Source of the DNA: a virus | Virus record (IMG/VR): IMGVR_UViG_3300010042_000003 | Location: 1-44,739 of that record | Length of the DNA stretch: 44,739 nucleotides | Direction: 5' to 3' (one strand) | Part shown: positions 22,609 through 44,739 of the stretch, one piece after another | Layout: each line of letters starts with the position of its first letter | Position numbering within the stretch: position 1 is the stretch's first letter | Program-made: the position numbers and the translations under genes | Notes under the pieces: model-generated | The model's input: only the letters and a program-made list of their open reading frames with translations | The model's database searches: none | Told to the model about the DNA's origin: nothing

Positions 22609-23532
22609 TTACAGATTAAATTTTATTTTTATCAGATCAATTATAGAAAGGTATTCTCTAGCGTATTTAGATTCTTTATGCGTTAACTTAACTTGAGTTT
22701 CGAACTCTAGTAAGTCTCCGAAAAAGCAGCCGCAGGAGACTTTAACGGTTAAAGATTCCTTTATCTTGTATGCAGTAGTGGTACGATTCTCAGAACCAAA
22801 CCCGGTAAATAAACACCAATCGTTATTTGATTTTATGTCTGCATCCCCGTACACCTTAGCATTCCCGTACACCTTAGCATTCCCGGACACCCAGGCATTC
22901 CCGTACACCCAGGCATCCCCGGACACCCAGGCATTCCCGTACACCTTAGCATTCCCGTACACCCAGGCATTCCCGTACACCTTAGCATTCCCGTACACCC
23001 AGGCATCCCCGGACACCAAGGCATCCCCGTACACCTTAGCATTCCCGTACACCAAGGCATCCCCGTACACCCAGGCATTCCCGTACACCTTAGCATTCCC
23101 GTACACCTCAGCATCCCCGTACACCTTAGCATTCCCGTACACCTTAGCATTCCCGTACACCTTAGCATTCCCGTACACCTTAGCATTCCCGGACACCTCA
23201 GCATCCCCGTACACCTTAGCATTCCCGGACACCCAGGCATTCCCGGACACCTTAGCATTCCCGGACACCCAGGCATCCCCGGACACCAAGGCATCCCCGT
23301 ACACCAAGGCATTCCCGTACACCAAGGCATTCCCGGACACCAAGGCATCCCCGGACACCTCAGCATCCCCGTACACCCAGGCATTCCCGGACAGGTTGTC
23401 TAGTGATGATACCCACCCGCCTATTTCACCCTCTTCAGCGTATTTAGTTTTAACGGTGGCTTTAATCCTGAAAACGGTTAAGCCTAAAAAATTAATCTTC
23501 GTTTCTGTTGTTAGTTCAAAGTGTTTTTTCAT
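22609..23532 (-). CDS. Hexapeptide-repeat (left-handed beta-helix) protein
   Basis: 307 aa. After a 47-residue N-terminal segment ending GEIGGWVSSLDN come 31 uninterrupted hexapeptides of the form (Y/S)-G-(N/D)-A-(K/W/L/E)-V at residues 48-233, the signature of a left-handed beta-helix. The C-terminal part carries TTTAYK and CGCFFGDLLEF, a tail I recall from similar phage and bacterial proteins of unknown role. With 18 residues per turn the helix would have about 10 turns. There are no acyltransferase residues, so an architectural or binding role is likely. It has its own paired-operator promoter. Confidence 0.85.
   Translation of the reverse strand: MKKHFELTTETKINFLGLTVFRIKATVKTKYAEEGEIGGWVSSLDNLSGNAWVYGDAEVSGDALVSGNALVYGNALVYGDALVSGDAWVSGNAKVSGNAWVSGNAKVYGDAEVSGNAKVYGNAKVYGNAKVYGNAKVYGDAEVYGNAKVYGNAWVYGDALVYGNAKVYGDALVSGDAWVYGNAKVYGNAWVYGNAKVYGNAWVSGDAWVYGNAWVSGNAKVYGNAKVYGDADIKSNNDWCLFTGFGSENRTTTAYKIKESLTVKVSCGCFFGDLLEFETQVKLTHKESKYAREYLSIIDLIKIKFNL
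22834..23391 (-). repeat. 18-bp tandem repeat, 31 units, inside the hexapeptide gene
   Basis: 31 units of 18 bp, almost identical, varying at a few fixed positions: gtac or ggac (Tyr or Ser), att or atc (Asn or Asp), and the codon for K, W, L or E. Because units are multiples of three with no stops, all frames look open on both strands; only the hexapeptide frame is credible. The array is likely to change length by recombination. Confidence 0.95.
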
Positions 23533-26667: not shown

Positions 26668-28605
26668 ATGCAGTATGATTCGGTCCTATCTATTGATATA
26701 GAAACTTTTTCCAAAAAAAACATTAAAACAGCCGGGGGCTACACGTATGCGGCTAATTCGCAGATCATTATTTTTGCATGGGCTTTCGATAACGAAAAGG
26801 TTAATGCTGTGGACCTGCTTAGCGGTGAACGTATACCAGCACGCGTTATAGCTGCTTTAACGAATCCAAGGATCAAGAAAAAAGCTTTTAACGCAAACTT
26901 CGAAAGGAACTGTTTATGTAAACACCTCGGTATATATCTTCCACCTGAACAATGGGAGTGCACTATGATCCGGTGCGCAATGCTCGGTCTGCCTTTAAAC
27001 CTTGAGGATGCTGCAAAAGTTCTCAAAGTGAAAAATCAAAAAGATAAGCTCGGAAAATCCTTAATAAAATTCTTTTGCGAACCTTGTGTACCGACTAAAA
27101 CAAAACCCGGGCATTTTCGCAACCTGCCAAAACACGATCAGGTTAAATGGTCTCAGTTCATATCTTACTGTATAACGGATGTTGAGGCTGAACGTGATAT
27201 AAGCGATGCTTTGAGCTTTTATCACATATCTGACTTTGAACACGATCTTTGGTGCCTGGATCAGCGAATAAATGAAAGGGGCTTTAAGATCGATGAGGTA
27301 TTCGTAAATGAAGCTATCAAACTCGATCTAGCTTTCAGAGACCGTTTGATTAAAGAGGCCAAAGAGTTAACCGGCCTTACAAACCCGAACAGCGTTGCGC
27401 AATTGAAAACATGGTTATCTGAGGCCACGGGCGATGAAGTAATTACTTTAAACAAAGAATCGTTAAAAGATCTTCTCGGTAGTGTAGATGACAAGATCGC
27501 CCGCCGTGTTATTGAAATCCGGCAGGATCTTAGTAAAACATCAGTAAAAAAATTTAATGCCATGCTTGCTGCATTAGGTGTTAATAATCGTTTATACGGT
27601 TTAACGCAGCATTACGCTGCCAACAGGACCGGAAGATGGGGCGGACGGATTGTACAGCCCCATAACCTTCCCCGGGGAAATTATAAAGATGTTACTTTAC
27701 CAAGAAGTCTGGTGTCTAAAGGCAGGGCAGATATATTAGAAATTCTTTACGGAGCGATACCGAACGTTTTATCTAGTCTGATCCGTTCGGCTTTTGTCAG
27801 CGAAAACGGTAAAGATCTTTATATATCTGATTTCAGTGCGATAGAGGCTCGTATCATATCGTGGTTATCCGGTGAAGAGTGGCGCTTAGAGGTGTTCAGA
27901 ACTCACGGTAAAATATACGAGGCTTCTGCATCCAAGATGTTTAAGACACCTTTAAACGAGATCACCAAAGATTCGCCGCTGCGGCAACGTGGTAAAGTTT
28001 CCGAGCTTGCACTCGGTTACCAGGGCGGGGTAAACGCTTTGCTTCGTATGGATACAGACAAATCGCTAAACGAGTCTGAATTACCTGGGCTGGTAAAAGC
28101 CTGGCGCCGTGAGAATCCTAAAATTGTCGAACTTTGGCGCGACGTTAATAAAGCGGCTATAAAGGCTATTTCTGAGGGCGGAACCGTTCCTTTTAAATAT
28201 AATATGTCTTTCGAGTTTAAAAAAGGATTTCTGTTTATTACCTTGCCGTCCGGACGTAAACTTTCTTACGCAAACGCATCATTGGCCGAAGGTAAGTTCG
28301 GTTATAAAGTTACTTATTCGGGCATAGATCAGACGTCTAAAAAATGGTGCCGTATGGATACCTACGGTGGTAAACTGGTTGAAAACATCGTACAGGCCAT
28401 AGCCCGTGATTGTCTTGCTTACGCCCTGGTGAACGTTGACCGAGCCGGATTTAACATCGTAATGCACGTTCATGATGAGATCGTGACTGAAGACAGCGAT
28501 AAAAGTATCGAGGACCTGGACCGGATCATGGGTCAGGTTCCGCCATGGGCACCCGGGCTACCTTTAGGTGCTGAAGGTTTTGTAAGTAAATATTATAAAA
28601 AATAA
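26668..28605 (+). CDS. DNA polymerase, family A, with 3'-5' exonuclease domain
   Basis: 645 aa, the normal length for phage-type pol A. The N-terminal exonuclease starts SIDIETFS (D10, E12). Polymerase motif A: SDFSAIEARIISWL near residue 388. Motif B: RQRGKVSELALGYQGG near residue 440. Motif C: MHVHDEIVTE near residue 600. It synthesises phage DNA with proofreading and has no 5'-3' exonuclease domain. It heads the right replication operon directly behind the symmetric promoter. Confidence 0.95.
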   Translation: MQYDSVLSIDIETFSKKNIKTAGGYTYAANSQIIIFAWAFDNEKVNAVDLLSGERIPARVIAALTNPRIKKKAFNANFERNCLCKHLGIYLPPEQWECTMIRCAMLGLPLNLEDAAKVLKVKNQKDKLGKSLIKFFCEPCVPTKTKPGHFRNLPKHDQVKWSQFISYCITDVEAERDISDALSFYHISDFEHDLWCLDQRINERGFKIDEVFVNEAIKLDLAFRDRLIKEAKELTGLTNPNSVAQLKTWLSEATGDEVITLNKESLKDLLGSVDDKIARRVIEIRQDLSKTSVKKFNAMLAALGVNNRLYGLTQHYAANRTGRWGGRIVQPHNLPRGNYKDVTLPRSLVSKGRADILEILYGAIPNVLSSLIRSAFVSENGKDLYISDFSAIEARIISWLSGEEWRLEVFRTHGKIYEASASKMFKTPLNEITKDSPLRQRGKVSELALGYQGGVNALLRMDTDKSLNESELPGLVKAWRRENPKIVELWRDVNKAAIKAISEGGTVPFKYNMSFEFKKGFLFITLPSGRKLSYANASLAEGKFGYKVTYSGIDQTSKKWCRMDTYGGKLVENIVQAIARDCLAYALVNVDRAGFNIVMHVHDEIVTEDSDKSIEDLDRIMGQVPPWAPGLPLGAEGFVSKYYKK

Positions 28606-28609
28606 TTTT

Positions 28610-28897
28610 ATGAAAATTGTTTACGGTTACGTAGGTTTTATAGTTGTTTGGATACTGGTAGCTGTAGCGGCAATTTTAACGTTATACGGTATATGTATCG
28701 TTTTAAAGACGTTTTACGATTTCATCAGGCAAATAGATGCGTTTAATTACTACTTGTTTAGAGGTACGATACCCACCGATATGACACGGGAAATATACGT
28801 TGATAAAAGATTTGAACATCTCCTTAAAAATCCAAAACGAAGAAAATACCTTTTCCTTTTTCGATTAAGAAATATAAAAAGAACGAGTAAAAAATGA
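28610..28897 (+). CDS. Small membrane protein between polymerase and primase
   Basis: 95 aa. One long hydrophobic segment near 8-33 (GFIVVWILVAVAAILTLYG) is followed by a basic cytoplasmic-type tail (KNPKRRKYLF). Its stop overlaps the primase start by 4 bp (ATGA). A membrane protein within a replication operon might tether the replisome to the membrane; this is speculation. Confidence 0.65.
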   Translation: MKIVYGYVGFIVVWILVAVAAILTLYGICIVLKTFYDFIRQIDAFNYYLFRGTIPTDMTREIYVDKRFEHLLKNPKRRKYLFLFRLRNIKRTSKK

Positions 28898-31245
28898 TAG
28901 ATATTGCGGTAGGTACCAGTAGAGGTACAAAAACATGGAAAAATAAAAAGGTTACCTGGGAATATCTACAGGAAAAGCTGTTAACCAAACACGAAACCGC
29001 TGAGACCTACGCTGAATACATGGCAGCGGATAAAGCCCGTCAGTCTGAGATCAAAGACGTAGGCGCTTTCGTGGGCGGGTTTCTGCAAAACGGTAAACGC
29101 AGCCCTTCAACTATCAAACACCGTCAGGTTTTAACGCTGGACGCCGATTTCGCACACCCCCGATTCTGGCAGACTTTCACCATGTTTTACAGTTTCGAAG
29201 CGCTGGTTCATTCAACACATAAACATAACGCTGATAAACCGAGACTACGGCTCGTAATTCCTTTATCCCGCACTATATCACCTGAAGAGTATCAGGCGGT
29301 AGGGCGGATGCTGGCTTCGCGTTTAGGTATTGATTACTTCGATAGCACCGGTTTTCAGCCCGAAAGATTAATGTATTGGCCGTCCACTTCTAAAGGCGGT
29401 GAATTTTACGCAAAGTCTCAAAACGGAGAATTTTTAGACCCCGATGCGATCCTGAACCTTTACGAAGACTGGAAAGATATATCTTCGTGGCCGCTTTGCA
29501 GCAATGAAAGAGAAATGGCGATCCGGGGTATGGATAAGCAGGGTGACCCCCGAGAAAAGAAAGGAGCGATCGGCGCTTTCTGCCGTGTATACTCTATCAC
29601 CGAAGCTATTGAAACGTTTTTACCTGAAGTTTATTCTTCTGCAGGTGACACCAGGTTTACTTTTAACGGTGGATCTACCGGCGGTGGCGCTATTAATTAT
29701 AACGACCTTTATCTTTATTCGCACCACAGTACTGACCCCATAGGCGGGCACTTGTGTAACGCTTTCGATCTGGTGCGTATACACAAGTTCGGACACCTTG
29801 ACAAAGATCCCGGCCTTAACATATCAAAACAACCATCCTTTATAGAGATGATGGGCTTCGCTTCTGAAGCTGACGGCGTGGTTAAAGAGATGGGCGTTTT
29901 TAACGGTATTCCGGATGAAGATTGGGTGGGTACCCTGGACATGGATTATAAAGGCGAATACCAGCCTACCATAGATAATATATACATCATCCTTTCAAAC
30001 GATAAGAACTTAAAAGGTCTGTTCAGGTACAACGATTTCGAAGAGCGTGAATATTGCATGGGCGAAACGCCGTGGAACTTTTACGATAAACCGCGATACC
30101 TAACTGATAAAGACGATGCCGGTTTACGCCACTACCTTGAGCGGATCTATGGCATTTTTCACGTTAACAAAACAAAGGATGCTTTGGATCTGTGTTGCCT
30201 GAACAATCGTTTTAATCCGCCTAAAGAATTTTTAGACAATCTTGATTGGGATGGTATACCGAGGCTTGAAAGTTTATTCATAGAATCCTTTGGTGCCCCG
30301 GATACACCGTATACCAGGGCCGTTACGAAAAAATCGTTATCCGCTGCGGTAGCCCGTATATACAGGCCCGGCATAAAGTTTGACTATGTGCTCACGCTGG
30401 TAGGTCCTCAGGGTTTGGGTAAGAGTACTATTTTTAAAGAATTAGGTGGCGATTGGTTCTCAGACTCCCTGGCTACGATCCAGGGTAAGGATGCTTTCGA
30501 ACAGTTACAGGGTGTCTGGATTATAGAGATGGGCGAACTGTCCGGTTTACGTAAAGCTGAGGTGGAGATCATCAAACAGTTTATATCCAAGCAAGAGGAC
30601 CGGTACCGGGTTGCTTACGGCCGAAGGGTTGAAACATTTCTTAGAAAGTGTATTTTCTTCGGTACCACGAATGAATGGGGTTTCCTTAAAGACTCATCCG
30701 GGAACAGAAGGTTCTGGCCCGTATCCGTCAATAAAAAATATGTTCACGGCGCTATAAACGTTGCGCAGATTTGGGCAGAAGCAAAAGAATTATACCTGCA
30801 GGGCGAACATCTTTACCTGGATGAGGTTATCGAGGCGGATGCTAAAATCGTTCAGAGAAGCCACGCTGAGAACGATGAACGCATCGGGCTTATCGAGCAG
30901 TACCTCAACACCCTGTTACCTTTGAACTGGGAAAAACTCAGCATGTTTGAGCGCATATCGTTTTTATCCGGTGAACCTTTATCAGATCAGCCGGAAGGAG
31001 TGATTAAACGTGAGAAAGTTTGCGTAGCTGAGATCTGGTGCGAAGTATTGAAAGGCCAGTATAAAGATATGACGACCAATAATACCAAGTTTATACACGG
31101 TATCCTGCAGAACATTGAAGGATGGGAGCGGGCAGAAGCAAACAAGAAATATTCATTATACGGTTATCAGAGATCGTATGTTAAGATAATAAGCGATGAG
31201 AGAGAAAACATTAGAAGCGAAGTTGCGGAAGCAAATCAAGCTTAG
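28894..31245 (+). CDS. Primase-helicase fusion (AEP-like primase + VapE ATPase)
   Basis: 783 aa. The N-terminal third has LTLDADFAHP near residue 81 and HSTHKHNADKPRLRLVIP near residue 109, consistent with the DxD and basic motifs of archaeo-eukaryotic-type primases. The C-terminal part is VapE-like: Walker A GPQGLGKST near residue 504, then QLQGVWIIEMGELSG and FFGTTNEWGFLKD with sensor-type residues. It likely primes and unwinds DNA at the phage origin. Its last 50 bases overlap the VRR-NUC gene. Confidence 0.88.
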   Translation: MIDIAVGTSRGTKTWKNKKVTWEYLQEKLLTKHETAETYAEYMAADKARQSEIKDVGAFVGGFLQNGKRSPSTIKHRQVLTLDADFAHPRFWQTFTMFYSFEALVHSTHKHNADKPRLRLVIPLSRTISPEEYQAVGRMLASRLGIDYFDSTGFQPERLMYWPSTSKGGEFYAKSQNGEFLDPDAILNLYEDWKDISSWPLCSNEREMAIRGMDKQGDPREKKGAIGAFCRVYSITEAIETFLPEVYSSAGDTRFTFNGGSTGGGAINYNDLYLYSHHSTDPIGGHLCNAFDLVRIHKFGHLDKDPGLNISKQPSFIEMMGFASEADGVVKEMGVFNGIPDEDWVGTLDMDYKGEYQPTIDNIYIILSNDKNLKGLFRYNDFEEREYCMGETPWNFYDKPRYLTDKDDAGLRHYLERIYGIFHVNKTKDALDLCCLNNRFNPPKEFLDNLDWDGIPRLESLFIESFGAPDTPYTRAVTKKSLSAAVARIYRPGIKFDYVLTLVGPQGLGKSTIFKELGGDWFSDSLATIQGKDAFEQLQGVWIIEMGELSGLRKAEVEIIKQFISKQEDRYRVAYGRRVETFLRKCIFFGTTNEWGFLKDSSGNRRFWPVSVNKKYVHGAINVAQIWAEAKELYLQGEHLYLDEVIEADAKIVQRSHAENDERIGLIEQYLNTLLPLNWEKLSMFERISFLSGEPLSDQPEGVIKREKVCVAEIWCEVLKGQYKDMTTNNTKFIHGILQNIEGWERAEANKKYSLYGYQRSYVKIISDERENIRSEVAEANQA

Positions 31246-31501
31246 AAAAGGTTTGGCTTTGAAATGGGTATCGCCCGGGTTTACCGGTGTGCCTGATCGT
31301 ATCGTCATCATGCCGGGTGGTTTAGTTTACCTGGTTGAAATGAAGTGTAAAAAAGGTACGCTTTCTCCCAGGCAGCAAGTTGTTATTCCGCAGCTACAAA
31401 AGTTGGGGCTTGATGTTCGGGTCATCGATGATGATATTAAGTTAAAGGAGTTTTTAACTGAAGTGGATAAGGCTGTAAAAGTTGCAAAGATTTTATTTTA
31501 A
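31196..31501 (+). CDS. VRR-NUC domain nuclease
   Basis: 101 aa, a complete stand-alone VRR-NUC domain. Typical features: GLALKWVSPGFTGVPDRIVI, then YLVEMKCKKGTLSPRQQ with the catalytic ExK in VEMKCK and the GVPD turn. These small nucleases accompany VapE and SNF2 genes in many phages and are thought to resolve branched DNA. It overlaps the primase gene by 50 bp. Confidence 0.9.
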   Translation: MREKTLEAKLRKQIKLRKGLALKWVSPGFTGVPDRIVIMPGGLVYLVEMKCKKGTLSPRQQVVIPQLQKLGLDVRVIDDDIKLKEFLTEVDKAVKVAKILF

Positions 31502-36141: not shown

Positions 36142-36363
36142 ATGATTATAAAAGCAATATTCAAAAACGAGGATCAGCGTACGGGCTATAAAAAAGGTCT
36201 GCCTTACATATTAGATATGACCTTCGCAATGGTGCGGGCACCTTACTCAAGGAACAAAACCGAAATGATCCTTATCCGTACAACCATTGATACCGACCCC
36301 GATCCCATCTTCTATGAAAGTCTGGCCGGTATGCTTGAATCCTGGGATATTCTGCCGGTATGA
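36142..36363 (+). CDS. Small hypothetical protein upstream of the helicase
   Basis: 73 aa, alpha/beta, with no motif that I can name. Its stop overlaps the helicase start by 4 bp (ATGA), so the two are co-translated; it may be a helicase partner. Confidence 0.6.
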   Translation: MIIKAIFKNEDQRTGYKKGLPYILDMTFAMVRAPYSRNKTEMILIRTTIDTDPDPIFYESLAGMLESWDILPV

Positions 36364-37730
36364 AGTACATCCCGCACGATTATCAACAGATAGCAATAGC
36401 CCACGCGTTAAAACATAAACGTTGTGGGCTTATTCTTGACATGGGGTTGGGTAAGACCTCTGTAGTGCTTACAGTGCTGCATGAACTCAAGTACGGCATG
36501 GAGATCCGCAAACCACTCATCATCGGCACGAAACTGATCGTTGAGAAAACATGGACAGATGAGCGGGATAAATGGGATCACACCCGTAAACTGACCATTT
36601 CCCGAATCGTCGGCACCGAAGCCGAACGCATAGCCGCTCTTAAGGTTAAAGCCGACATATACGCTATATCAAGAGACAACATCGTTTGGCTGGTGGATCA
36701 CCTGGGCCTTAAGGGTTTTGACTTCGATATGGTCGTGGTAGATGAATCCAGTTCATTTAAGAACCGTGCATCGAACCGGTTCGAAGCCCTGATAAAAGTT
36801 TTACCCCGCGTAGCCAGAACCATTATAATGACAGGTACCTTTATACCCAACGGCCTTATCGATCTGTGGGCGCAGATGTTCCTGCTGGACTTCGGGGTAA
36901 GACTTGATAAGAACATAGGCGGTTACCGTGCCCGCTATTTCCGGCCGGACCAGCGTAACGAGTACGGCGGTGTTTTATCTTATAAGGTGGTGCCAGGCGC
37001 TGAAAAATCTATCTACAATAAAATAGGTGACATCTGCATCAGCATGCAGGCAAAAGACTGGTTATCGCTCAAACCACGGGAAGACAGGATCGAAGCGATC
37101 ATCCTTCCGGAAATGGCCGCTTATAAAGAGTTCAAACGCACAGAGGTGCTTAAGCTTGAGGATACGCTAATATCACCGGCCACGGCTGCGGTTATGTATA
37201 ACAAGCTGCTGCAATTCTCCAACGGCGCCGTTTACGATGATGAGGGAAACTTCCACGTAGTGAGCACGGCTAAACTCGATGCACTGAGTGAGAAGGTAGA
37301 AAACCTTAACGGAAAACCTGTCCTGATATTTTATCAGTTCAGATCCGATCTTTTCCGCATACAGGAGCGTTTCGGTAAACTGGTTACTGTTCTGAAAGGT
37401 GGTGCTGAGATAGATGCCTGGAATGCCGGCAAAATACCTGTGCTGCTTGCGCACCCGGCCAGCGCCAGCCACGGATTGAACCTTCAGAAAGGCGGGAACC
37501 ACGTGGACTGGTTCGGGGTGCCATGGAGTTCTGAGCTTTATCTGCAGGGTTGCGCCCGCGTGGACCGGCAGGGCCAGGATGAAATCGTACTGAATAATCA
37601 CCTGTTATGCGAGGGTACTATCGATGATCTCGTTAAAAAAAGATTGGAAGGAAAAATAATCACACAAGATGACCTGTACCGGAACATAGGTATAAGACCC
37701 GTGAACGGAAAAGTGCGTGTTATACTTTAA
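36360..37730 (+). CDS. SNF2-type DEAD/DEAH-box helicase
   Basis: 456 aa. Motif I: ILDMGLGKTS (K32). Motif II: VVVDESSSFKN (D128-E129, a DES-type box). Motif III: IIMTGTFIPNGLIDLW near 157. The C-terminal helicase half has SHGLNLQKGG near 370 and QGCARVDRQGQ near 396 (motif VI). This is the compact SNF2 helicase that accompanies VapE and VRR-NUC genes in phage replication modules. It is the last gene of the right replication operon and is followed by the origin-like region. Confidence 0.92.
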   Translation: MKYIPHDYQQIAIAHALKHKRCGLILDMGLGKTSVVLTVLHELKYGMEIRKPLIIGTKLIVEKTWTDERDKWDHTRKLTISRIVGTEAERIAALKVKADIYAISRDNIVWLVDHLGLKGFDFDMVVVDESSSFKNRASNRFEALIKVLPRVARTIIMTGTFIPNGLIDLWAQMFLLDFGVRLDKNIGGYRARYFRPDQRNEYGGVLSYKVVPGAEKSIYNKIGDICISMQAKDWLSLKPREDRIEAIILPEMAAYKEFKRTEVLKLEDTLISPATAAVMYNKLLQFSNGAVYDDEGNFHVVSTAKLDALSEKVENLNGKPVLIFYQFRSDLFRIQERFGKLVTVLKGGAEIDAWNAGKIPVLLAHPASASHGLNLQKGGNHVDWFGVPWSSELYLQGCARVDRQGQDEIVLNNHLLCEGTIDDLVKKRLEGKIITQDDLYRNIGIRPVNGKVRVIL

Positions 37731-38059
37731 AGTGCTGATACTCACAATTATCAGGTAAAAAGTTTATAAAACCTTAAAATCGTGTTTTGCTACGTGTTTA
37801 ACCCCCTGTTAGGGGGTTAACTCTTTTATAATCAGAGGGTTCAACACCGGATATAACACGAAAACACGAATAACACGATTTTCCTTTAAAGTACCACGGG
37901 CAATATCCATATTTTTATACGTGTATATAATAGGTATCAATATTTATGTATTAACTGTTTATAGTATATTCGTGTTTATCGTGTTATATATAGTAATAAG
38001 TAGCACGTTATCAGCATTTTAAAGGTGAACACGAAATACTAAACACGAAATAAACACGA
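37725..38059. other. Iteron-rich origin candidate in a 400-bp non-coding region
   Basis: There is no gene in 37731-38129. It holds nine copies of the 7-mer aacacga: direct at 37855, 37863, 37872, 38028, 38042 and 38053, inverted (tcgtgtt) at 37780, 37970 and 37979. Between the clusters (about 37905-37970) is a very A/T-rich stretch. A 16-bp imperfect inverted repeat (37725-37740 with 38009-38024, one mismatch) encloses most of it. Clustered short iterons next to an A/T-rich segment beside replication genes fit a replication origin. Because it also precedes the terminase region, a packaging site is the main alternative. Confidence 0.65.
37798..37826 (+). terminator. Hairpin / probable terminator after the helicase operon
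   Basis: A perfect 10-bp stem (ttaaccccct / agggggttaa) with a 3-nt loop, followed by ctctttta. It lies 68 bp after the helicase stop. The T tract is short, so it could instead be a structural element of the origin. Confidence 0.6.
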
Positions 38060-38117
38060 TTTTAGCGCGTTATATAGGTGTAATATCAAAGTTACACGGT
38101 CTTTTGCGGCTTTTGGG

Positions 38118-38125
38118 TATATTTA
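38118..38125 (+). promoter_or_regulatory. -7-like element before the 38130 gene
   Basis: TATATTTA, one base off TAnnTTTG, four bases (caac) before the ATG at 38130. The spacing is the same as at the other proposed leaderless promoters in this genome. Confidence 0.5.
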
Positions 38126-38129
38126 CAAC

Positions 38130-38555
38130 ATGGAAAATTTACAAGTTTTAATCGAAAAAGCGTGGGGAGATTTCTGGCAGTTAATTAAAGGTTCCGCCCA
38201 GCACTTAGATCAGTACGGGGGTTTGGCGAATTATGCGCTGCTGAGTGAAGATATGACCCTTCGTAAGCTGCGGGAATACGTTCGTAATAATCCAGCGGAA
38301 TTTTTTATTGACAGAACCCGTATTTATCCGAAAGCGTTGGAAGGTCTCAGGCACAATAACGGATGGACCGTTATCTATGGTGTGCATGAGGTGCCTACAG
38401 ATAACGGTACATATTGGCTCGTTGGCCGAAGGAGCAAGAAAGTTGCTAAACGATCAGTAAGACTAAAAACTAAAACTGAAAAATTGGCTTTTGCCAAAAG
38501 ATATTCACATCACTTAAGTGCGAACAAACCTCAACCCCCTTTACACAATGGATAA
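38130..38555 (+). CDS. Hypothetical basic protein
   Basis: 141 aa. The N-terminal half is helical (LREYVRNNPAEFFIDRTRIY) and the C-terminal half very basic (GRRSKKVAKRSVRLKTKTEK), suggesting nucleic-acid binding. It follows the iteron region directly, so a role in origin or packaging-site binding is conceivable but only inferred. No family was recognised. Confidence 0.65.
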   Translation: MENLQVLIEKAWGDFWQLIKGSAQHLDQYGGLANYALLSEDMTLRKLREYVRNNPAEFFIDRTRIYPKALEGLRHNNGWTVIYGVHEVPTDNGTYWLVGRRSKKVAKRSVRLKTKTEKLAFAKRYSHHLSANKPQPPLHNG

Positions 38556-38830: not shown

Positions 38831-38838
38831 TATATTTG
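38831..38838 (+). promoter_or_regulatory. -7 element of the packaging/head operon
   Basis: TATATTTG matches TAnnTTTG exactly and ends 21 bases before the ATG at 38860. It follows a terminator, so the head operon likely starts here. Confidence 0.6.
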
Positions 38839-38859: not shown

Positions 38860-39630
38860 ATGAAGAGAGATATTCTAAACGGAGATCCCGACGACCACTT
38901 AAAAAATAAAGCGTTAAGTCATCTGGAACAGGCGTTCGTTAACGCTTATTGTGTGCACCACCATGCAGCCAGGGCAGCAAGAGAGGCAGGGTATAACACC
39001 CCCGATTGTTTCAGGCAAATGGGCTATCTCGTTAAAAATAGACCACACGTCAAGGCTGCTATTAACGAAAGGATGCGGCTGGCCACCATCGATGCGGATG
39101 AGTCCATAGAAATATTAAGTAAGGTCGCCAACGTCAATGTTACTAACTACACGATCACCCGGGATGTTGTACATTACCCCGCGATTAAGCGCACGATACA
39201 GGATCAGATTAAAGAAGTTAAAGACAGGATCTACATAGAAGACCGTGTTTTTTGCACTATTAAGATGGATGCCCGCCGCGAACGTGCGCACCGCAGGTTG
39301 CTGGATTCTTTACGGGAAGATCTTGAGCGTTTACGTGCTAAAGAGGACCTGGACCCGGATTACTTTGAAATCGTCACCGGTCCGCCGGTCCTTATTAAAA
39401 AAACCGAACTTGATTTCACTGCTATCGCACGTGATAACGTGCCGATCAAATCTTATAAAGAGACTAAAGAGGGCGTACAGGTCGAGCTTTACAGCACTGT
39501 GGAGGCCAATCGGGAACTGCTTAAAATCGCAGGACGTTATGAGAAAGATAACCGTCAGAAAGCCCCTAATGTTAAGTTGATGAGTTTCGATCCTTTGGCC
39601 AATGATGCAACCGACAACAGCACTACGTAA
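38860..39630 (+). CDS. Terminase small subunit
   Basis: 256 aa from the ATG at 38860; an in-frame TTG at 38836 lies inside the -7 element and is rejected. The N-terminal helix-turn-helix region AFVNAYCVHHHAARAAREAG with NRPHVKAAINERM is typical of Terminase_2-type small subunits that recognise the packaging site. It overlaps the large subunit gene by 29 bp. It should bind phage DNA and load the packaging motor. Confidence 0.88.
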   Translation: MKRDILNGDPDDHLKNKALSHLEQAFVNAYCVHHHAARAAREAGYNTPDCFRQMGYLVKNRPHVKAAINERMRLATIDADESIEILSKVANVNVTNYTITRDVVHYPAIKRTIQDQIKEVKDRIYIEDRVFCTIKMDARRERAHRRLLDSLREDLERLRAKEDLDPDYFEIVTGPPVLIKKTELDFTAIARDNVPIKSYKETKEGVQVELYSTVEANRELLKIAGRYEKDNRQKAPNVKLMSFDPLANDATDNSTT

Positions 39631-44397: not shown

Positions 44398-44739
44398 ATG
44401 GAAGTAATAGTAACAGCCCCCGTATGGGGAAGGTACAAAGAGGGTGACAAGATCACCCTTAATGACTCCACTGCCGAAGCCTGTATAAAAGCGGGTAAGG
44501 TGGTTGCCGCAGCGAGCGGAAAGTCTGAACAGGAGAAAGCAGATAAAGCTGAACAGGAGAAAGCTGCCAAAGCTGAACAGGAGAAAGCTGCCAAAGCTGA
44601 ACAGGAGAAAGCTGACAAAGCTGAACAGGAGAAAGCAGATAAAGCTGAACAGGAGAAAGCAGATAAAGCTGAACAGGAGAAAGCAGATAAAGCTGAACAG
44701 GAGAAAGCAGATAAAGCTGAACAGGAGAAAGCAGATAAA
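44398..44739 (+). CDS. N-terminal part of AEQEKADK-repeat head-region protein
   Basis: 114 codons to the window end, continuing at base 1 after removal of the 119-nt overlap. The 43-residue unique N-terminus (EVIVTAPVWGRYKEGDKITL, then DSTAEACIKAGKVV) looks like a small beta domain similar to short accessory proteins next to phage capsid genes. Then come octapeptides EQEKADKA and EQEKAAKA, forming a charged helix. It may be a capsid decoration stalk or a scaffold remnant; the role is not established. Confidence 0.85.
   Translation, partial: MEVIVTAPVWGRYKEGDKITLNDSTAEACIKAGKVVAAASGKSEQEKADKAEQEKAAKAEQEKAAKAEQEKADKAEQEKADKAEQEKADKAEQEKADKAEQEKADKAEQEKADK
44524..44739 (+). repeat. 24-bp tandem repeat, nine copies
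   Basis: Nine units from 44524. The first four vary (gataaa, gccaaa, gccaaa, gacaaa endings) and the last five are identical. Bases 44621-44739 duplicate 1-119, so the real array after circular joining has nine copies unless the assembler collapsed more. Confidence 0.92.

Follow-up and report, generated by a model that had tools for sequence, protein, structure and literature searches.

A two-orientation iteron array behind an SNF2 helicase gene as the probable replication origin of a VapE-encoding phage

Island origins are built from two iteron sets that flank an A/T-rich region and lie 3′ of the initiator gene (PMC6092414), and the helicases Rep of islands and Cch2 of SCCmec recognize iterons directly downstream of their own genes through their C-terminal domain (PMC7581432). 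We analyzed a viral stretch of 44,739 nucleotides (hereafter the window), in which a repeat array occupies the gap behind an SNF2-type helicase gene. The best reading of this array is that of a VapE-dependent origin of the satellite-island type, relocated and uncoupled from its initiator gene; its function has not been shown directly. We consider it very probable that the array is the replication origin of the phage and is recognized by the phage's own VapE, binding and origin activity being inferred. If so, the locus supplies a probable origin and initiator for the widespread phage module polA-vapE-VRR-SNF2, for which no described origin was found in the literature searched. Furthermore, it extends to full phages an origin type that has been described as exclusive to phage satellites, and bears on the source of satellite replicons.

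The repeat array and its setting

The record comprises 44,739 bases, and both of its ends fall within one and the same 24-bp tandem repeat, so that it probably represents a complete genome, circular or permuted, that was broken inside a repeat. This repeat (1 to 160 and 44400 to 44739) is coding (EQEKADKA). Large terminase and major capsid genes are present in the window. The replication module, in which polA, vapE, the nuclease gene and SNF2 are on the plus strand, consists, in order, of a family A DNA polymerase gene (polA, 26668 to 28605), the VapE primase-helicase gene (28894 to 31245), a VRR-NUC-type nuclease gene identified by homology to other loci (31196 to 31501), several small genes, a PAPS-reductase-like gene with two methyltransferase genes, the SNF2-type helicase gene (36360 to 37730) and the array, followed by the terminase genes TerS, which starts at 38836, about 780 bp downstream of the array, and TerL, which starts at 39602. 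Inside the module, between 32149 and 35117, the PAPS-reductase-like protein is encoded beside the two DNA methyltransferase-like genes, one of C5 type and the other matched by PHROGs only; together they are possibly a DNA-modification set. Elsewhere, a minus-strand gene at 22609 to 23532 is made of 18-bp tandem repeats (CCCGTACACC...) and matches YdcK beta-solenoid and bactofilin models.

The gap extends over 399 bp, from the end of SNF2 at 37730 to the next gene at 38130 (37731 to 38129), and holds no open reading frame of 60 aa or more. The initial annotation, made from this sequence alone, had described nine AACACGA copies in two orientations, and nine exact copies, six forward and three reverse, were indeed found between 37780 and 38059. 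A reverse copy (37780 to 37786) and a forward copy (37855 to 37861) are followed by a forward pair (37863 to 37869 and 37872 to 37878) with a 9-bp spacing. The second member of this pair lies 98 bp, start to start, from a reverse pair (37970 to 37976 and 37979 to 37985), again with a 9-bp spacing, and three further forward copies (38028 to 38034, 38042 to 38048 and 38053 to 38059) complete the array. Between the two pairs (37879 to 37969) lies the A/T-rich core that had also been noted; it is 76% A/T, the best 80 bp (from 37924, 80% A/T) belong to the most A/T-rich 0.3% of the window, and a role as a candidate unwinding element is inferred.

The earlier statement that the array is stronger than chance was upheld, as in 3,000 dinucleotide-shuffled versions of the gap no 7-mer exceeded five copies and AACACGA never exceeded two. 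Over the whole 44.7-kb window the heptamer occurs 16 times against 6.15 expected, the seven copies outside the array being scattered, and of the 61 ACACG cores in the entire window 13 lie inside the gap or at its edge. A motif search accepted 15 sites when degenerate ones were counted, with a unit of 7 to 9 bp. When over-represented heptamers were scored in 400-bp segments, with the shuffled-locus maximum of 7.5 as the threshold, the array was the sole cluster of the window above 7.5, coding tandem repeats aside (22.9 to 23.4 kb and the contig ends), and the sliding heptamer scan detected no second significant non-coding array in the window. GC skew, third codon positions included, did not change sign clearly at the array and was not informative.

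The 16-bp inverted repeat (left arm 37725 to 37740, plus strand; right arm 38009 to 38024, minus strand) is real, with 15 of 16 positions paired and none of 60 Markov-randomised sequences as good, but three copies (38028 to 38059) fall outside it. Its left arm, moreover, overlaps the last 6 nt of SNF2, stop codon included. An intrinsic-terminator-like hairpin where the SNF2 transcript ends (37798 to 37820, plus strand, RNA fold z −2.95), absent from the initial annotation, stands among the first copies of the array.

The position of the gap between an intrinsic terminator and a downstream gene is also what would be seen if AACACGA were the operator of a regulator controlling the promoter of the operon that runs from 38130 to the terminase genes. 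A Bacteroidetes-like promoter (TTTG...TAnnTTTG-like), identified by eye at about 38104 to 38125, and the many phage arrays that precede a co-oriented gene are compatible with such transcription control. We nevertheless judge it unlikely: nine sites around an A/T-rich core exceed the needs of a simple operator, the arrays of relatives described below follow a vapE-type gene and not a regulator, no regulator gene is common to the array loci, and in these relatives the unit sequence varies along with the VapE wing.

Arrays in related phages

Absence of the iterons from relatives that share the replication genes had been named in advance as an outcome that would refute an origin. This outcome was met in letter only: the AACACGA unit is not common to the VapE relatives, and an exact search for the three-iteron string of the window gave no match, but equivalent arrays with other units (GGCAACA, GTTACCA, GTATCCA, GGACACA, GTAAACA and others) are present. 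Among the 73 non-redundant VapE loci scored, 44 carry a significant two-orientation array; for 29 of the 44, the top array starts between −150 and +100 bp from the vapE stop codon, compared to 0.67 expected. The remaining 29 of the 73 loci had no significant two-orientation array by heptamer scoring, some of them showing weaker arrays at the end of vapE. No genes other than those for VapE, the VRR-NUC-type nuclease and SNF2 are shared by all, or nearly all, array loci. Arrays behind vapE are found in phages of Clostridioides, Staphylococcus, Paenibacillus and Corynebacterium and in many uncultivated phages; among cultivated phages, phiCDKH02, phi7401PVL, FutureBee and Adelaide carry an array in a gap of roughly 300 to 600 bp behind the VapE gene, and two Bacteroides phages have none in that gap. 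A genome scan with VapE led to one locus.

Other arrangements were observed as well. In a second class of VapE phages (L241, L242, L251, L256, L257, L262, L288, L295, with AGAAACA, and L296), TAAACAA-like arrays, some of them below threshold, lie several kb 5′ of polA and not behind vapE. Looser searches with AACACGA returned mainly single-orientation or unrelated repeats, together with one group of AACACGA arrays 5′ of a PrimPol-DUF3987 gene (L055:5798-6043, L032:10199-10445 and L091:11351-11597); the product of this gene, scanned in L055 only, has a C-terminal winged helix.

Because the first set of loci had been chosen by VapE, loci chosen by terminase were also examined. Six of the seven further non-coding arrays of this set that could be placed stand directly behind a VapE, DUF5906 or DUF3987 gene, the loci with an array in that position being L133, L140, L141, L145, L157, L166, L147 and L149; L148 is cut off on the helicase-gene side. 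A non-coding TAAACAA array of 12 copies was also observed in a terminase relative (L164:5255-5569), whose left neighbor is not a helicase gene as far as could be seen. TerS proteins in some phages bind repeats near their genes, and the proximity of TerS (38836) and TerL (39602) to the window array would fit a packaging site (pac/cos) whose repeats are bound by the small terminase subunit. Such a site should remain tied to the terminase genes across relatives, which was not the case, as in terminase relatives the arrays follow the helicase gene. Relatives with a 60 to 70% identical TerL have their arrays by that gene, L147 and L149 lack an array just before the terminase genes, and the contig ends share a coding tandem repeat with no cos signal, leaving packaging a very improbable explanation.

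The window array was compared with those of the VapE phages by unit, geometry and place. Its unit does not fit their commonest motif, [T/C]G[G/T]NNACA (leave-one-out p 0.92), which several other arrays also fail to match, and an attempt to derive a common motif including AACACGA failed. A geometry of a forward pair at 9 bp, an interval of 95 to 105 bp and a reverse pair at 9 bp, with limits chosen after the data had been seen, occurs in 13 of 30 divergent arrays compared to 0.57 expected after permuting spacings and strands, and the window meets it with its 98-bp interval (permutation 0.019). As for place, the window array lies 6.5 kb 3′ of vapE and behind SNF2, where none of the 73 VapE loci carries an array, and the VRR-NUC-type gene of the window overlaps the end of vapE, the site of the array in relatives. 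The window does share the family trait of polA, vapE, the VRR-NUC-type nuclease and SNF2 in one module. The window array is thus a family member by geometry, and not by unit sequence or by place. The proposal of an iteron origin gains support from the bidirectional arrays of relatives, usually directly behind vapE, and from the geometry that the window array shares with them, and it withstands a comparative test that it could have failed.

VapE as candidate initiator

The initial annotation had found no classical initiator gene and had offered VapE or the product of the gene at 38130 as possible binders. An initiator-type gene is in fact present, as VapE is homologous to PriRep1 (7pds), a replication initiator helicase of staphylococcal islands, with a sequence E value of 1e-116; its AlphaFold model (pLDDT 88) aligns with the PriRep1 chain at a TM score of 0.81 and 33% identity. 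The last domain of the VapE model (codons 708 to 764, 31015 to 31185, plus strand) has a predicted strand-helix-helix-strands order, as in a winged helix, with the wing at about 741 to 764. The 38130 protein found no support as a binder, since tblastn returned no relative and its only match was a weak PHROG of unknown function. Plasmid iteron arrays also act as centromere or incompatibility sites, and the repeats could by that precedent serve partition, incompatibility or recombination and not initiation. No tool result supports this, no ParA/ParB-like or integrase domain was detected among the window proteins scanned (not every ORF), and the gene partner of the arrays in relatives is a primase-helicase; of all the explanations weighed, we find this one the hardest to credit. 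The operator, packaging-site and partition readings are all ranked below that of an origin.

Mantel tests of iteron distance against VapE distance, run on 40-column windows of VapE and on other genes, gave only weak signals (rho about 0.2 for VapE) and no peak at the C-terminus. In a column scan of 31 VapE sequences less than 75% identical to one another, column 752 was best tied to iteron similarity and column 758 second, of 491; when the window was excluded and similarity was measured in another way, column 752 was again first and column 758 seventh, of 486. Both columns are located in the wing. Tyr758 is common to the window, L228 and L264, and the L228 iteron is the second most similar to that of the window, a post hoc and weak observation.

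Clostridioides difficile phages with near-identical VapE proteins carry three different iterons, GTCTACA, GTCAACA and GTTACCA. Among these phages 52 VapE columns vary, and all 13 that separate the groups as fixed differences fall at 743 to 766, in the wing. Outside the array and the final ~100 bp of vapE, three of them (L231, L240 and L229) share 99 to 100% identity over more than 4 kb. The differing block of ~400 bp comprises the VapE wing and all nine repeats (five forward, four reverse), which changed in concert, and identity within it ranges from 0.57 to 0.95 per 100-bp bin. This pattern alone is no proof of a functional link, because the wing-coding DNA abuts the array and one recombination tract could carry both. 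Comparison with related phages suggests that in this family the repeats and the short protein segment that seems to read them can be exchanged as a unit, and it points to the C-terminal wing of VapE as the putative reader. The chances seem to us evenly divided as to whether VapE phages possess an exchangeable cassette of origin specificity, in which wing and adjacent iterons form one block, the window being a variant with its array uncoupled from the gene. Swapping both as one block would yield phages that share nearly all their DNA and have mutually exclusive origins, and escape from satellites or origin decoys would then explain the diversity of iterons. Moreover, with the three C. difficile alleles, the correspondence between residues of a winged-helix initiator and the bases that they read could be tested in an almost isogenic setting.

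Proposed mechanism and comparison with known systems

Sequence and comparison show the array and its geometry, that VapE is a homologue of PriRep1, and that arrays are associated with vapE-type genes, and the covariation of wing and iteron sequences is supported indirectly, in relatives. VapE belongs to the AAA+ primase-helicases that act as 'self-loading initiators'. In the mechanism that we propose, its C-terminal winged helix would, by inference, bind the iterons that flank the A/T-rich core. It would probably do so as two oppositely oriented hexamers, placed by the forward and reverse pairs. By analogy, melting of the core would be followed by loading of VapE on the single strands, by unwinding and by priming, melting and loading being inferred, and the family A polymerase of the phage would extend the primers made by VapE.

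Plasmid iteron origins of the RepA/pi type rely on iterons of 17 to 22 bp and a WH1-WH2 Rep, whereas the window unit measures 7 to 9 bp and no WH1-WH2 Rep initiator was found among the window proteins scanned. In lambda, the O gene and the ori iterons are inherited together with type specificity, the iterons lie inside the initiator gene and O is no helicase; the window array lies in a gap instead. The alpha protein of satellite phage P4, with ori/crr, is a primase-helicase that recognizes short iterons in both orientations. The likeness to the window thus lies in the type of protein and in the two-orientation iterons, and the difference in P4 being a satellite. The isolated C-terminal domain of SCCmec Cch2 binds iterons downstream of its gene, as proposed for VapE, but that element is not a phage, Cch2 contains a Primase_Cterm/D5-type domain and acts with a separate polymerase-primase, and its putative origin has only three iterons (PMC7581432).

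The origins of phage-inducible islands (SaPI/PICI, with Rep/PriRep initiators) share with the window two sets of short iterons around an A/T-rich region, and their initiator is a self-loading AAA+ helicase, to which the PriRep1 homologue VapE corresponds. The C-terminal domain of that initiator binds the iterons, while for VapE binding is inferred and its support is indirect, from relatives only. Their origin lies immediately 3′ of the initiator gene, as do the arrays of 29 relatives, in contrast to that of the window, 6.5 kb away and behind SNF2. The window phage encodes its own polymerase, capsid and terminase and is therefore a full phage and not a satellite. The island type of origin being known, what is new is very probably its occurrence in a full phage, with the array set apart from the initiator gene in this case, and the exchangeable block of wing plus iterons is a more surprising part than the origin itself.
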